Shown here: positions 248-45,051 of the stretch, piece after piece | How positions within the stretch are numbered: the first letter of the stretch is position 1 | How the letters are laid out: each line of letters opens with the position of its first letter | NCBI GenBank assembly: GCA_018433865.1 | Contig: JAHDQJ010000004.1 | Span: forward strand, 124,001-188,000 | Source of the DNA: Spirochaetales bacterium | Lineage (GTDB): Bacteria; Spirochaetota; Spirochaetia; Sphaerochaetales; Sphaerochaetaceae | Direction of reading: 5' to 3' | Length of the DNA: 64,000 nucleotides | Notes under the pieces: model-generated | Databases searched by the model: none | Seen by the model: only the letters and a program-made list of their open reading frames with translations | What the model was told of the DNA's origin: nothing | Made by a program: the position numbers and the translations under genes

Positions 248-276
248 TTGCTTGGTGAACTCTTGTTGTGTATGAT
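248..276 (+). promoter_or_regulatory. Promoter of the metallo-hydrolase gene
   Basis: TTGCTT at 248-253, a 17-bp spacer, and TATGAT at 271-276. The predicted transcript would start near 283, after the upstream in-frame GTG at 268, which supports the ATG at 298 as the real start. Confidence 0.5.
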
Positions 277-297
277 GACATGCAGAGGGAGATGGTA

Positions 298-1131
298 ATG
301 ATCAAGATAACCACATTGATCGACAACCAAGCCGAGCCTGGGAAAGGATTGGAAGCGGAACACGGATTCTCGTGTCTTGCCGAAGTCGGCACCTTGAGGA
401 TCCTGTTCGACACGGGAACAGGTGATTCCTTCATCCGCAATGCCCGTGCACTGGATGCTGATCTTTCCGTGCTGGATCTCCTGGTGATCAGTCACGGGCA
501 CTATGATCATGCGGGGGGAGTCGTTGCCCTATTGGAACGGTTCTCCTATCCCGCGCTCGAGCTATGGACCGGCAAGGGGTTCGAATACAAGAAGTACGCT
601 GACGATCCCGATGGCATGCGGTTTCTCGGATTCGATTTCGACAGGAAATTCCTCGATTCCCACCAGGTGAGCTGGCATACGGTGTGCACCGACACCGTGA
701 TGGTCAGAAGTGGTGTCTGGCTGGTCTCCTCATTCGCGAGGATGCACCCGATGGAGCGCGCGAATCCCCGTTTCCTTGTGGAAAAACCGAAAGATGGCAC
801 GGTGACGGATGATTTCGATGATGAGATAGCACTGGTAATGGATTCGCCTCACGGCCTGGTGATGATCGCAGGATGCTCGCACCCGGGGATACTGAACATG
901 GTGGACTCTGTCAGCGCACGGTTCGCGAAGCCGATCCATATGCTGATCGGGGGAATTCACCTCTATGACGCATCACCTGAGCGTCGCAATCTCGTGGTAC
1001 ACGGCCTGATCGAACGAGGCATTCCCCACCTGGGAGTCTCCCACTGTACAGGAGAAGCCGCCTCGGAGATGCTGCGTGCTTCCTGCCCCGGATATTTTGC
1101 AAACAGAGCCGGTACCGTGACCGTCATATGA
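298..1131 (+). CDS. MBL-fold metallo-hydrolase (DHPPP-synthase-like)
   Basis: 277-residue metallo-beta-lactamase-fold hydrolase. The metal-binding signature SHGHYDHAGG is at residues 65-74, and further His/Asp ligands are likely in GCSHPG and near the C-terminal SHCTGE. Its layout resembles the family annotated as 7,8-dihydropterin-6-methyl-4-(beta-D-ribofuranosyl)-aminobenzene-5'-phosphate synthase, which is common in anaerobes, but the real substrate cannot be read from sequence. It should be cytoplasmic, as no signal peptide is visible. The ATG at 298 is chosen over the GTG at 268 because an AGAGGGAG ribosome site lies 6 nt upstream and the promoter TATGAT covers the earlier start. Its 3' end overlaps the convergent gene by 8 bp. 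Confidence 0.85.
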   Translation: MIKITTLIDNQAEPGKGLEAEHGFSCLAEVGTLRILFDTGTGDSFIRNARALDADLSVLDLLVISHGHYDHAGGVVALLERFSYPALELWTGKGFEYKKYADDPDGMRFLGFDFDRKFLDSHQVSWHTVCTDTVMVRSGVWLVSSFARMHPMERANPRFLVEKPKDGTVTDDFDDEIALVMDSPHGLVMIAGCSHPGILNMVDSVSARFAKPIHMLIGGIHLYDASPERRNLVVHGLIERGIPHLGVSHCTGEAASEMLRASCPGYFANRAGTVTVI

Positions 1132-1546
1132 GCGGAATCAGCGGGTCGAATGAAGCGCCTCTCGCAGCAGGCACATAGGCAGAAGCCTCCTGGTCGAACC
1201 TGATGAATGCGATCGATTCCTCTCCCTTGCGCAATATCGGGATCGGTCTTGGTCCTGCCCATCCTCTCTTGGGCATCTTGTAGTGTTCATACAGGATCGT
1301 GATCCGGTCTCCCTCCGTAAGATTGCTCAGGCTCCGTTCGACCCCAATGACCTGTGCATTGACCTGGACCGTAATGTTCCTGCTGAACAGTGGTCGGGAT
1401 GTCTTGACCTTGAGAACCCGGATATCCACCACATCCGGTGCTCCCAGTTGCATGTTCCGGTACTCTTCCGGCGCAATCTCCGCAAGGAGCACAAAGGCGA
1501 TGCAGAGGAACACGAACAGCATGATCACTCTTCTTGGTGCGTGCAT
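1124..1546 (-). CDS. Membrane-anchored or secreted hypothetical protein
   Basis: 140 residues. An N-terminal hydrophobic segment (about residues 8-22, IMLFVFLCIAFVLLAEIAP) looks like a signal peptide or anchor, followed by a soluble beta-rich domain with a repeated V-x-V-x pattern and an acidic, glycine-containing turn (EGDRITILYE). I do not recognise the family; an OB- or beta-sandwich-like extracytoplasmic domain is possible. GGGAGGA lies just before the ATG. It is transcribed away from the oxidoreductase gene at 1658, and a TTGACC-N17-CATAGT promoter is visible upstream. Confidence 0.6.
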   Translation of the reverse strand: MHAPRRVIMLFVFLCIAFVLLAEIAPEEYRNMQLGAPDVVDIRVLKVKTSRPLFSRNITVQVNAQVIGVERSLSNLTEGDRITILYEHYKMPKRGWAGPRPIPILRKGEESIAFIRFDQEASAYVPAARGASFDPLIPLI

Positions 1547-2640: not shown

Positions 2641-2988
2641 ATGTTCGTATCACATAAGGACAAGATTGAGAAGAAAGCGCAGAGCCACCCATCGATGCAT
2701 GCAGTGGAGAAACAAATATTGATCGGACCTGAGCAAGGCTGGGCAGACCACGTCATGCGGCTGTTCACGCTCGGACCCTCCGGCTATGCTCCCCGTCACG
2801 CACATCCATGGCCACATATCATGTATGTGGTCGAAGGGAAGGGGAATCTCTACATGGATGGGCAGGATCATCCGTTGACCAGCGGTTCGGTCGCATACGT
2901 ACCGTCAGACATCGAGCATCAGGTTTCCAATGCCGGAGATCTTCCGTTCGTGTTCATGTGCATCGTACCGAAGATCGGCGAGGCTTGA
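2641..2988 (+). CDS. Small cupin-domain protein
   Basis: 115 residues forming a single conserved beta-barrel cupin: HAHPWPHIMYVVEGKG gives the first metal-binding motif (two His and a Glu-like position) and PSDIEHQVSN the second. Such small cupins bind a metal and act as isomerases, dioxygenases or sugar-binding proteins, so the reaction cannot be fixed here. The ATG at 2641 has a strong AGGAGG 5 nt upstream. It sits 14 bp after the oxidoreductase and 1 bp before the next gene, so the three are probably co-transcribed. Confidence 0.8.
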   Translation: MFVSHKDKIEKKAQSHPSMHAVEKQILIGPEQGWADHVMRLFTLGPSGYAPRHAHPWPHIMYVVEGKGNLYMDGQDHPLTSGSVAYVPSDIEHQVSNAGDLPFVFMCIVPKIGEA

Positions 2989-2989
2989 G

Positions 2990-4168
2990 ATGGAGATCGC
3001 CGCGAAGACACGTACCGAACGCTTCGGCATCTTGCTTCCCTACTGTCTCGGACTCGCCGATCCTGTCAGCAACACAGGAAATTTGGCAAAGGCACGGACT
3101 CTGTTCGATTCGGTCACCGCGACCGAGACGATGGAGATGGTCGACACGGTTGTCAGCTCTACGGATGACCTCGAGCTAGTGAAGATCATCGTGACCAGGA
3201 TGCTGCATTCCTTCACCAAGGCCCTGGGCGCACACGTGCGGCCGTTCGAGCGGGGATTCCCCTACATCGAATCCATCCTGGAAAGGAACGATCGGATCTC
3301 ACGGGTGCTCGATGACCTGAAGCCTGTACTTGCACGGGTGAACGGCCGCGGATCGGTCGGAGAGGATGCTCCGATGATCCTCAGGTCCTTGGCCGGACTC
3401 GAACTGTTGTCCACCCACTATGTGGGAAAGGAGAACATCCTGTTTCCGGTGGTGGAGCGGTATATCGAGGAGAGCAGGTGCGTGCAACTCATGTGGGCGA
3501 TCCACGATGACATCCGTTCCTCGTTGCGACGGTTGCACGATGATGTGGTGTCGGAAGAGGTTCCGCTGGCCGAACTGAACAGGCTGTTCGGCCGTCTCTT
3601 CTTCGATATGCGGTCGATGATCTTCCGTGAAGAACAGGTGCTGTTTCCCGCGGTGTTGCCACGGATTCCTTCGAAGGTACTCAGGTCCTTGGGCGAGCAG
3701 CAGTTCGAGAGCACACAGGCGGATGCATCGGAAGCACGAGGAGATGCAGACGCGAAATTGGATCTGGTGACCGGCAACCCGACGGTCAGGCAACTGATCG
3801 GCATATTCAACAATCTTCCCGTGGACATCACGCTCGTCGATGAAGAGGATCGTGTCGTCTACTTCAACACCCCGGAACATAGGATTTTCCCGAGGGCGAA
3901 GGAGGTCGTAGGGCGTACCGTACAGAACTGCCATCCTCCGCGAAGCGTCCACATCGTCCAGCGTATCCTCGATTCCTTCCGTGAGAAGCGGGAGCGGACC
4001 GCGGACTTCAGGATATTCGTCAAGGGACGGTTCATCCGGATCTCCTATCATGCGCTTTATCACGAGGATGGTTCCTATGCCGGAACTCTCGAAGTGTCGC
4101 AGGATATCACCGATCTCAAGAAGATGGAGGGAGAGAAGCGGCTTCTGGACTGGAATTCTGCCGATTGA
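2990..4168 (+). CDS. Hemerythrin-like/PAS protein related to DUF438 proteins
   Basis: 392 residues. Roughly 60-225 form a helical hemerythrin-like region with metal-ligand patterns (THYVGKENILFP, WAIHDDIR, FREEQVLFPAVLP). After a linker, residues 270-385 are a PAS domain (PVDITLVDEEDRVVYFN to GTLEVSQDIT). This domain pair is typical of DUF438 proteins, thought to bind a di-iron centre and sense oxygen, nitric oxide or redox state. The first 60 residues do not look like a normal DUF438 head. The C-terminal PAS closely resembles that of the gene at 41527-42765, down to the shared GEKRLLD/GDKRLLD tail, so the two are paralogues. The start is chosen 1 bp after the cupin stop; its ribosome site is weak, suggesting coupling. 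Confidence 0.8.
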   Translation: MEIAAKTRTERFGILLPYCLGLADPVSNTGNLAKARTLFDSVTATETMEMVDTVVSSTDDLELVKIIVTRMLHSFTKALGAHVRPFERGFPYIESILERNDRISRVLDDLKPVLARVNGRGSVGEDAPMILRSLAGLELLSTHYVGKENILFPVVERYIEESRCVQLMWAIHDDIRSSLRRLHDDVVSEEVPLAELNRLFGRLFFDMRSMIFREEQVLFPAVLPRIPSKVLRSLGEQQFESTQADASEARGDADAKLDLVTGNPTVRQLIGIFNNLPVDITLVDEEDRVVYFNTPEHRIFPRAKEVVGRTVQNCHPPRSVHIVQRILDSFREKRERTADFRIFVKGRFIRISYHALYHEDGSYAGTLEVSQDITDLKKMEGEKRLLDWNSAD

Positions 4169-43032: not shown

Positions 43033-43075
43033 ATCGTAGCACGATCGCATGATGATTAATGTTGCATTTGCAACA
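43033..43075 (-). promoter_or_regulatory. Fnr/Crp-type activator site and promoter of the DUF1858-DUF438 operon
   Basis: TGTTGCA-TT-TGCAACA (43060-43075) is a perfect palindrome that reads GTTGC-N4-GCAAC, the 5-4-5 architecture of Fnr-family sites. The minus-strand -10 candidate is TACGAT (43038-43033), so transcription would start near 43026, placing the site centre at -41.5, the class II activator position. No good -35 box is present, as expected for an activated promoter. Confidence 0.55.
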
Positions 43076-43087
43076 ATAATACAGGAA

Positions 43088-43116
43088 GGGCCCCGGCATT
43101 GCAAGTGCCTGGGCCC
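43088..43116 (-). terminator. Hairpin after the acyl-CoA synthetase gene
   Basis: 11-nt arms GGGCCCCGGCA (43088-43098) and TGCCTGGGCCC (43106-43116) with one mismatch and a 7-nt loop, 30 bp after the stop at 43147. Followed on the minus strand by TTCCTGTATT, a weak T-tract. Confidence 0.6.
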
Positions 43117-43146
43117 CATCCGTGTGTTTCCGGGAAGTGGAATCGA

Positions 43147-45051
43147 TCAGCTGAAGAGCGACTGTATCTCCTTCGCATAGAGTTGGTTGATCTTGTGGCG
43201 CATGACTTCCTGCTTTGCACTGAGTTCCTGGCCGATCTTGAACGGACTGTTCAGGATCGCGAACCGGTTGATCCGCTCGAAGCTCTTGAATCCGTTCTTC
43301 GCGCTCACCATCTCGTTGATCTCGGAGTTCAGCAATTCGCGGACCTCGGGAAGCTCGGTGATGTCGAAACGGGCCATGTAGGGGATGTTGTTGTCCTTCA
43401 CATACAATTCAAGCTGCTTCGTATCGGGAACGATCAAGGCTGCAAGGTATTTCTGGTCCTGGCCGACGACAACAGCCTGTTCGATGTACTCCGACTCCCT
43501 GATGCGGGATTCGATGGGGACCGGCTCGATGTTCTCGCCTCCCGAGAGGACGATCGTATCCTTCGCACGTCCCTTGATCGCATACTCTCCGCGGTGTGTC
43601 CAGACACCGATGTCTCCGGTATTGATCCAACCATCCTTGTCGATGACCGCTGCGGTCAGGTCGGGTCTCTTGTAGTACCCTTTCATCACCTGTCGACCTC
43701 GTGCGTAAATGACACCCTTCTGCCCCGGTTTCACCGGATTTCCCGAGTCATCGACGATCTTGATCTCGGTTTCCGGCAGCGGTGACACGGTCCCGGGAAC
43801 TTGCCGCTTGATGTTTCTCAGTCCGATTACCGGAGCCGTCTCCGTCAGCCCGTAGCCATCCAGGAGGGTGACGCCGATCGCCTTGAAGAACTTATCGACG
43901 GAAGAGGGAAGCGAACCTCCTCCCGAGACTCCTGCCCTGAAGTTCGTACCGAACTTTTTCTTGATCGTCTTGAAGACGAGTACGTTTCCGAGCAGCTTGA
44001 ACGGTGTGAGCAGTACGAGCGGGATGATGCCCAACAGGAAATCGAACGGATAGAAGCGGCGCGTGAACTGGGGCATGCGGTTGGAGACGAGGTTCAGTGC
44101 CGCTGCGTGATTCGCTCCGACCCATACGAAGAAGTGGAACAGCGCTTTCGCCACGGGACTCTTGCCCTTCACGTTTTGGTAGACTCCCGCTTTCACTGCC
44201 TCCCAGATGCGTGGGACCGATCCCATCCACGCCGGGTTTACGCGTTGCAGATCCACGAGCATGATCTTCCCGATCGGCTTCGAATAGGCGATCGCCGAGG
44301 CCTGGGAGATGATCACGTACTGCAGGATGCGCTCGAACGAGTGCCAAACCGGCAGGACGCTCAACCACCGTTCTCCCTTATGGAAATCGATGACTTTCGG
44401 CAGCTGCTCGAGTTGGAAGAGGAAGTTGCGGTGGGTAAGCATGACTCCCTTCGGTTCTCCCGTGGTTCCGCTGGTGAAGATGATCGTGGCAAGATCCTCA
44501 TCCTTGCCCTTTGCGATCTCCTTTTCGACGAACTGGGGATCCTTCCGCGCGAATGCAGCACCCTCGGCCATCACCTCTCCATATGAGAGGATGTTAATCG
44601 AAGCGGACCGTGGCAACTCGTCGGTCACGTGGTGGACCGTATCCATGATGATTAGGGTCTCAAGCTGGGGAAGCTCGTTGGCGAGGTCGAGGATTTTCCT
44701 TGCCTGTTCCGCATTCTCCGCGAAACAAACCTTGCTTTCGGTCACCTTGAGGATGAACTGCAATTCATAGGGCATCGCATCCCTGCCGCGCGGCACATCG
44801 GCGGCTCCCAGTGAAAGGATGGCCAGGTCTGCAGCGAGCCATTCCTTTCGGTTGTCACTGATCAGGCCTACCGCGCTGCCCCGGGCAACCCCCAGGGTAT
44901 GCAATCCTGCGGCGAGTTGCAGGACCTCAGCATAAAAGGTCTGGTATGTGACCGGATGGAAGACGCCTTCGTCATCCTTGGACAGTTGGACTTCATGGGA
45001 ACCGTAGCTCCCTGTGATTTGTTGCAATAGCTTGGGGAGTGTGTCGTACAT
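43147..45051 (-). CDS. Long-chain acyl-CoA synthetase (AMP-forming)
   Basis: 634 residues, FAA1/FadD15-type length. The P-loop ATIIFTSGTTGEPKGVMLTH, the DGYGLTETAPV motif, INTGDIGVWTHRGEYAIKGR and the C-terminal KDTIVLSGGENIEP/PIESRI segments place it in the adenylate-forming family. It activates free fatty acids to acyl-CoA on the cytoplasmic side for phospholipid synthesis or other uses; beta-oxidation genes are not seen. AAGGAG precedes ATG 45051. A TTGACA box and an ATTACAG/CTGTAAT inverted repeat upstream may mediate regulation. It could also supply acyl-CoA to the SPT-like enzyme at 38184 (speculative). Confidence 0.92.
   Translation of the reverse strand: MYDTLPKLLQQITGSYGSHEVQLSKDDEGVFHPVTYQTFYAEVLQLAAGLHTLGVARGSAVGLISDNRKEWLAADLAILSLGAADVPRGRDAMPYELQFILKVTESKVCFAENAEQARKILDLANELPQLETLIIMDTVHHVTDELPRSASINILSYGEVMAEGAAFARKDPQFVEKEIAKGKDEDLATIIFTSGTTGEPKGVMLTHRNFLFQLEQLPKVIDFHKGERWLSVLPVWHSFERILQYVIISQASAIAYSKPIGKIMLVDLQRVNPAWMGSVPRIWEAVKAGVYQNVKGKSPVAKALFHFFVWVGANHAAALNLVSNRMPQFTRRFYPFDFLLGIIPLVLLTPFKLLGNVLVFKTIKKKFGTNFRAGVSGGGSLPSSVDKFFKAIGVTLLDGYGLTETAPVIGLRNIKRQVPGTVSPLPETEIKIVDDSGNPVKPGQKGVIYARGRQVMKGYYKRPDLTAAVIDKDGWINTGDIGVWTHRGEYAIKGRAKDTIVLSGGENIEPVPIESRIRESEYIEQAVVVGQDQKYLAALIVPDTKQLELYVKDNNIPYMARFDITELPEVRELLNSEINEMVSAKNGFKSFERINRFAILNSPFKIGQELSAKQEVMRHKINQLYAKEIQSLFS

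Follow-up and report, generated by a model that had tools for sequence, protein, structure and literature searches.

Upstream of a two-gene operon for a DUF1858 protein and a DUF438-hemerythrin-PAS protein, a Sphaerochaetaceae genome carries the palindrome GTTGC-N4-GCAAC. An earlier note had read it as a class II site for an Fnr-family regulator responding to oxygen or nitric oxide (NO). The locus raises the question which regulator would act here, on which other genes and in response to which signal. We analysed the window (the whole stretch of 64,000 nucleotides), the genome to which it belongs and further genomes of the family. According to the reading that we favour (probability roughly 0.87, judged from sequence), an HcpR-type Crp/Fnr regulator encoded in the same genome would bind the palindrome as its operator and activate the DUF1858/DUF438 operon together with a nim-cupin-hcp cluster. 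In the open-licence literature we found no paper joining HcpR and Sphaerochaeta nor, among the papers listed, any on the control of DUF1858 or DUF438.

The operator and the operon promoter

The minus strand from 43075 to 43060 reads TGTTGCAAATGCAACA, i.e. TGTTGC-AAAT-GCAACA. The perfect 5-4-5 palindrome of the earlier note is thus present and actually extends to 6-4-6. The transcription start was placed by taking the -10 hexamer as positions -12 to -7, following the usual convention. Relative to this predicted start the palindrome is centred at -41.5 (position 43067.5), exactly as the note had claimed from the TACGAT hexamer. The bases from -35 to -30 are CATTAA and match TTGACA at one of six positions; inspection of this stretch confirmed that the operon promoter has no -35 box. 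A TG dinucleotide in front of the hexamer, absent from the earlier note, creates an extended -10 element. Relative to the predicted start, the operon promoter has the layout expected for a class II activator (centre at -41.5 and lack of a -35 box). The DUF1858 gene begins 13 bases downstream, counted to its start codon. All features are listed in Table 1, including an inverted repeat that is probably the terminator of the upstream AMP-binding gene.

The two genes of the operon overlap by ATGA. The best named relatives found via the DUF438 protein belong to a Sphaerochaetaceae MAG (72% identity) and a Sphaerochaeta MAG (67%). Residues His95, Glu103, His146, Glu151, Asp174, Asp175, Glu176 and Glu223 of this protein are invariant in 80 out of 80 relatives. 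In its PAS region the pair Cys338-His339 is likewise invariant (80/80) and could bind heme or a metal. A second hemerythrin-PAS protein is encoded at window positions 2930-4168 (+). It gives no DUF438 match and is approximately 35% identical to the DUF438 protein over the shared part. This gene was considered as a regulon member and rejected, with no perfect 5-4-5 palindrome between 2630 and 3180.

Table 1. Features of the operon locus (window coordinates) and the candidate regulator gene.
Feature	Position	Strand	Remarks
DUF438-hemerythrin-PAS gene, 412 aa	41527..42765	-	PF04282 89 bits, PF01814 63.4 bits, PF13596 96.7 bits
DUF1858 gene, 83 aa	42762..43013	-	PF08984, 61.8 bits (cut-off 32.2)
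Predicted transcription start	43026	-	inferred from the -10
Extended -10, TGC-TACGAT	43033..43041	-	TACGAT at 43038-43033, TG at 43041-43040
Operator TGTTGC-AAAT-GCAACA	43060..43075	-	class II position, centre -41.5; read from the sequence, kept in close orthologous operons
G+C-rich inverted repeat	43088..43117	-	between AMP-binding gene and operator; seen by eye
AMP-binding acyl-CoA ligase-like gene	43147..45051	-	PF00501, 251.8 bits; upstream neighbour, outside the regulon
Candidate HcpR-type Crp/Fnr regulator, 224 aa	L034:3129-3803		same Sphaerochaetaceae genome; cNMP_binding + HTH_Crp_2

Further sites and the candidate regulator

Within the 64-kb window GTTGC-N4-GCAAC occurs once (0.05 expected). 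A search for the 6-4-6 form with TANNNT at class II spacing and up to two mismatches gave two matches (0.03 expected), namely the operator itself without mismatch and the same palindrome on the opposite strand with two. Across the 2.9-Mb genome the 5-4-5 core is found at eight places compared to nine for the reversed control; as it is not enriched, the core alone has no evidential value. The perfect 6-4-6 form occurs at only two places, before the DUF1858-DUF438 operon and in the promoter of a Crp/Fnr gene. The core combined with TANNNT at class II spacing also yields two places, with no control match. Most variants of the 6-4-6 form with one or two mismatches fall inside open reading frames. 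We retained just three genome sites, those with conserved context. The earlier note had named a lack of further sites in the genome as evidence against its reading; two such sites were found, one before a nim-cupin-hcp cluster and one before a Crp/Fnr gene.

The first of these, site (a), has the sequence TGTTGCTTTTGCAACA (C43:29099-29114; L034 3100-3115) and lies directly 5' of the 224-residue Crp/Fnr gene. This gene supplies a candidate for the Crp/Fnr protein that the earlier note had asked for, with a perfect 6-4-6 palindrome at its own promoter. Site (a) extends from approximately -3 to +13 in a promoter of the form TTGATA-17-TAGGAT. Overlying the promoter start, it is in a repressor position, which suggests autoregulation.

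Site (b), GGTTGCAATTGCAACA (C47:63969-63984; L035 1970-1985), lies 5' of a gene for a Nim-like flavoprotein. Its -10, TATAGT, has an offset identical to that of TACGAT from the window operator. The Nim-like assignment is based on PF12900 (87.4 bits); the NimABCDEF model scores 102.8, below its cut-off of 260. Downstream follow a small gene for a cupin-like protein (Cupin_2, 24.0 bits, below the cut-off of 27.2) and, approximately 0.9 kb from the site, hcp (TIGR01703, 669.9 bits, cut-off 360.8). The palindrome is part of the promoter of an hcp-containing operon, which points to an HcpR-type regulon. We favour nim rather than the divergent argC as the target of site (b), given the offset of the -10 and the fact that nim and cupin keep their order; argC expression may also be affected.

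The candidate regulator comprises a cNMP_binding and an HTH_Crp_2 domain (49.2 and 43.4 bits, both over cut-off). Translation and alignment revealed a single cysteine in its N-terminal region, Cys28; the Fnr N-terminal cysteine set is missing. In Fnr, the N-terminal cysteines hold an oxygen-labile [4Fe-4S] cluster. The E. coli protein shares the class II position, the 5-4-5 palindrome and the superfamily with the present system, but differs in its TTGAT half-site and its cluster cysteines, compared to GTTGC and one N-terminal cysteine here. The FNR box is given as TTGAT-N4-ATCAA in the accessible part of PMC1274295. The present operator does not have this sequence, in agreement with the earlier note, which had already remarked on the different half-site. 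An oxygen-sensing Fnr was consequently rejected as the regulator, the cysteines and the operator both being of another kind. What stands of the earlier assignment is the Crp/Fnr superfamily; in place of Fnr, the presence of hcp in the same regulon supports an HcpR-like partner. With hcp in the regulon and a single N-terminal cysteine instead of the Fnr set, NO or nitrite appears to be a likelier signal than oxygen.

The regulator is related by sequence to HcpR of P. gingivalis (PDB 9DAY; phmmer E-value 2.1e-8), and hcp is a target in both cases. The P. gingivalis protein uses heme with Met68 as a ligand, according to the available sections of PMC12750200. Met68 aligns with Thr64 of the present regulator, and its relatives also have no methionine near that column. 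Residues Cys28 and Cys119-x3-Cys123-x2-His126 form a possible cofactor site; all four are found in 77 out of 124 aligned regulators and are often lost together. Compared to the Met68 heme, this set suggests a different cofactor site in the regulator and its relatives, the candidates being heme, Fe-S or another metal. Since the Met68 ligand comes from the P. gingivalis protein and is not known to be a defining feature of the whole family, we file the protein as HcpR-like and not as a heme HcpR.

With the HcpR2 branch, as far as described in the accessible text of Rodionov et al. 2005 (PMC1274295), the system shares a Crp/Fnr protein of anaerobes, a palindrome at hcp, the 5-4-5 form and hemerythrin-like regulon members. 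The common HcpR2 combination in that source is GTAAC-N4-GTTAC with Pro181, in contrast to GTTGC-N4-GCAAC with Ser181 and Arg185 (Crp numbering) in the operator and recognition helix found here; the present pair therefore falls outside the HcpR2 subfamily as defined by Pro181 and GTAAC-N4-GTTAC. Ser181 is reported there for HcpR of C. thermocellum and C. difficile, whose motif differs.

For D. desulfuricans HcpR2, a model in the available portion of PMC5701242 involves an Fe-S cluster and repression that is relieved by NO. The present regulator could in the same way be a repressor that leaves the DNA when NO damages its cofactor, upon which expression rises, and site (a) does overlie the start of the regulator's own promoter. 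We consider this unlikely for the operon, where the centre at -41.5, the missing -35 box and the conserved extended -10 form the layout of an activator-dependent promoter. Activation, judged from the position of the site, remains our preferred reading.

Conservation in the family

GTTGC-WWWW-GCAAC was found upstream in all 11 close DUF438 operons (56-100% protein identity) among the 61 family genomes; seven of these operons, as judged by sequence, had apparently already been seen in named MAG contigs. TANNNT is at the exact class II offset in nine of them and shifted by one base in two (L328, L329). Three of the 11 operons have no DUF1858 gene, and the site then directly precedes DUF438. Of the 19 DUF438 orthologues that the family contains, the remaining eight (36-45% identity) lack a palindrome of this kind upstream. 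The same was observed for 11 further partial paralogue matches, which start 6-133 residues into the query; for most of them the inspected region covered just ~100-200 bases of upstream sequence. Outside the spirochaetes, a perfect HcpR-like palindrome is present at only three of 73 DUF438 loci (perfect palindromes only). As judged from these upstream regions, the wider DUF438 family is mostly outside the control of such a site.

A scan of the 61 genomes for the class II pattern yielded 23 matches in 12 genomes, compared to two for the reversed control. Nine are located at DUF438 operons and nine at the nim/argC divergence. One precedes a cupin orthologue (40% identity), one a DUF1858-SBP_bac_6 protein and one lies beside a Crp gene, and two have no assigned target (L203, L209). 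The DUF1858-SBP_bac_6 gene (L192, genome G018, 260-1468, minus strand) encodes an N-terminal DUF1858 fused to a solute-binding domain, which would place DUF1858 under the same operator in another setting. At the 18 DUF438 and nim sites the central WW is enclosed by A and T without exception, and 14 have the TG of an extended -10. The cupin gene was found at all eight nim loci that reach far enough (of nine), and hcp follows downstream in five of the eight loci extending past nim.

The palindrome might in principle have arisen by chance or be part of a terminator: its 5-4-5 core is no commoner in the genome than expected by chance, and the terminator-like repeat stands just upstream. Conservation of site and spacing in all 11 close orthologues, with protein identity as low as 56%, and the excess of class II matches over the control refute this reading as far as sequence allows, and we assign it practically no weight. 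Together with the two additional genome sites in fitting neighbourhoods and a candidate regulator with a site at its own promoter, they support the earlier proposal of a class II site for the Crp/Fnr superfamily.

Orthologues of the regulator with at least 55% identity exist in eight genomes. All eight contain class II sites, and in seven GTTGC-N4-GCAAC lies just before the start of the orthologue. Four of the 12 site-bearing genomes have no close orthologue (G001, G031, G047, G018), the assemblies of the first three consisting of 270-830 contigs. G018 has three sites and only a relative of 22-23% identity with the same helix class and a GTTGC palindrome of its own. These four genomes, and the number of Crp/Fnr proteins in the present genome (14 HTH_Crp_2 matches, eight over the curated cut-off), would be in line with another Crp/Fnr protein as the real partner. 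This is very improbable: among the Crp/Fnr genes of the genome, a perfect 6-4-6 palindrome is located only at the promoter of the proposed regulator, and the recognition-helix class of this protein predicts the motif in other lineages.

Recognition-helix residue 185 and the proposed mechanism

In the available part of Rodionov et al. 2005 (PMC1274295), the source of the Crp numbering used here and of the role assigned to positions 180 and 181, these two residues correlate with the operator and residue 185 is named as a DNA contact of Crp. We counted regulators with Arg180, Ser181 and a perfect GT-palindrome upstream (excluding 25 of 65 rows in a first set and 30 of 60 in a held-out set); some counted rows are near-identical, e.g. 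L159/L160 and L180/L181. In the first set Arg185 goes with GTTGC in 15/15 cases and other residues with another operator in 25/25 (GTTGT 16, GTTGG 5, GTTGA 3, GTTTG 1). The prediction was then fixed before 60 more regulators were gathered. In this held-out set GTTGC accompanies 11/11 Arg185 proteins versus 1/19 others, the exception bearing Lys185. Pooled, the values are 26/26 versus 1/44 (Fisher p = 2.4e-18 without tree correction); across these regulators residue 185 foretells which base stands innermost in the operator half-site. Residue 185 changed five to six times on the regulator tree. A tree-aware test was not significant (p = 0.25): well-supported branches supply three independent pairs, each of them concordant, and with shared ancestry this number is too small to reach significance. 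If Lys is counted with Arg, four of five pairs are concordant and one is without difference.

Three genomes outside the family fit the helix-operator correspondence, as read from their DUF438 promoters: GTTGC with Ser181/Arg185 in Sinanaerobacter, GTTGT with Ser181/Ala185 in an Anaerolineaceae MAG, and GTAAC with Pro181/Arg185, the canonical HcpR2 pair, in Lutispora (L214).

Beside GTTGT-type regulators, GTTGT-N4-ACAAC was observed at class II distance from a -10 that faces the divergent gene (L220, L221, L224, L226, L227, L228, L232). A class II scan for it gave 13 matches versus two for the control, seven of the 13 beside such regulators; one GTTGT operator may serve both directions. Regulators with Lys185, mostly with Thr181, have GTGGT-N4-ACCAC upstream at five loci (L286, L289, L292, L303, L304), perhaps another specificity class.

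We propose the following mechanism. The regulator, bound at -41.5, would recruit RNA polymerase to a promoter that has an extended -10 and no -35 box. It would thereby switch on the DUF1858/DUF438-hemerythrin-PAS operon together with the nim-cupin-hcp cluster, and the palindrome at its own promoter would probably serve to repress its own gene. NO would be the signal that switches on these NO defence genes. Binding, activation and NO as the signal are inferred; the regulon content (hcp, a Nim-like protein, hemerythrin) points to nitrosative stress. The part of PMC12915319 available to us describes HcpR of C. difficile as required for the induction of hcp and frdX by NO. In D. desulfuricans, the hemerythrin-PAS gene Ddes_1165 and its short neighbour are NO-induced and Ddes_1165 is a proposed YtfE equivalent (PMC5701242, in the portion available). 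It resembles the window DUF438 gene in combining hemerythrin and PAS with an adjoining short hypothetical gene; this likeness is one of architecture, NO induction being a feature of Ddes_1165, for which that portion of the source reports no operator.

A broader, tentative reading, in which we place rather less than even confidence, joins three proposals: residue 185 is a third specificity switch in Ser181 HcpR-like regulators, NO is sensed via Cys28 and Cys119-x3-Cys123-x2-His126 and not via a Met-ligated heme, and the DUF1858/DUF438-hemerythrin-PAS operon is an NO-defence unit. According to the switch proposal, Arg (or Lys) at 185 would select GTTGC-N4-GCAAC, and Ser, Asn, Ala, Thr or Gly would select GTTGT and neighbouring variants. 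The operator would then be predictable from the protein.

For this spirochaete family, the favoured reading would add a three-part regulon of regulator, hcp cluster and DUF1858-DUF438 operon. It would tie the DUF438-hemerythrin-PAS protein and DUF1858, whose function is unassigned, to nitrosative stress. The conserved Cys/His set raises the question of an NO-sensing cofactor in these regulators, and a rule based on residue 185 would reduce operator prediction to a simple test across a large set of regulators from anaerobes.
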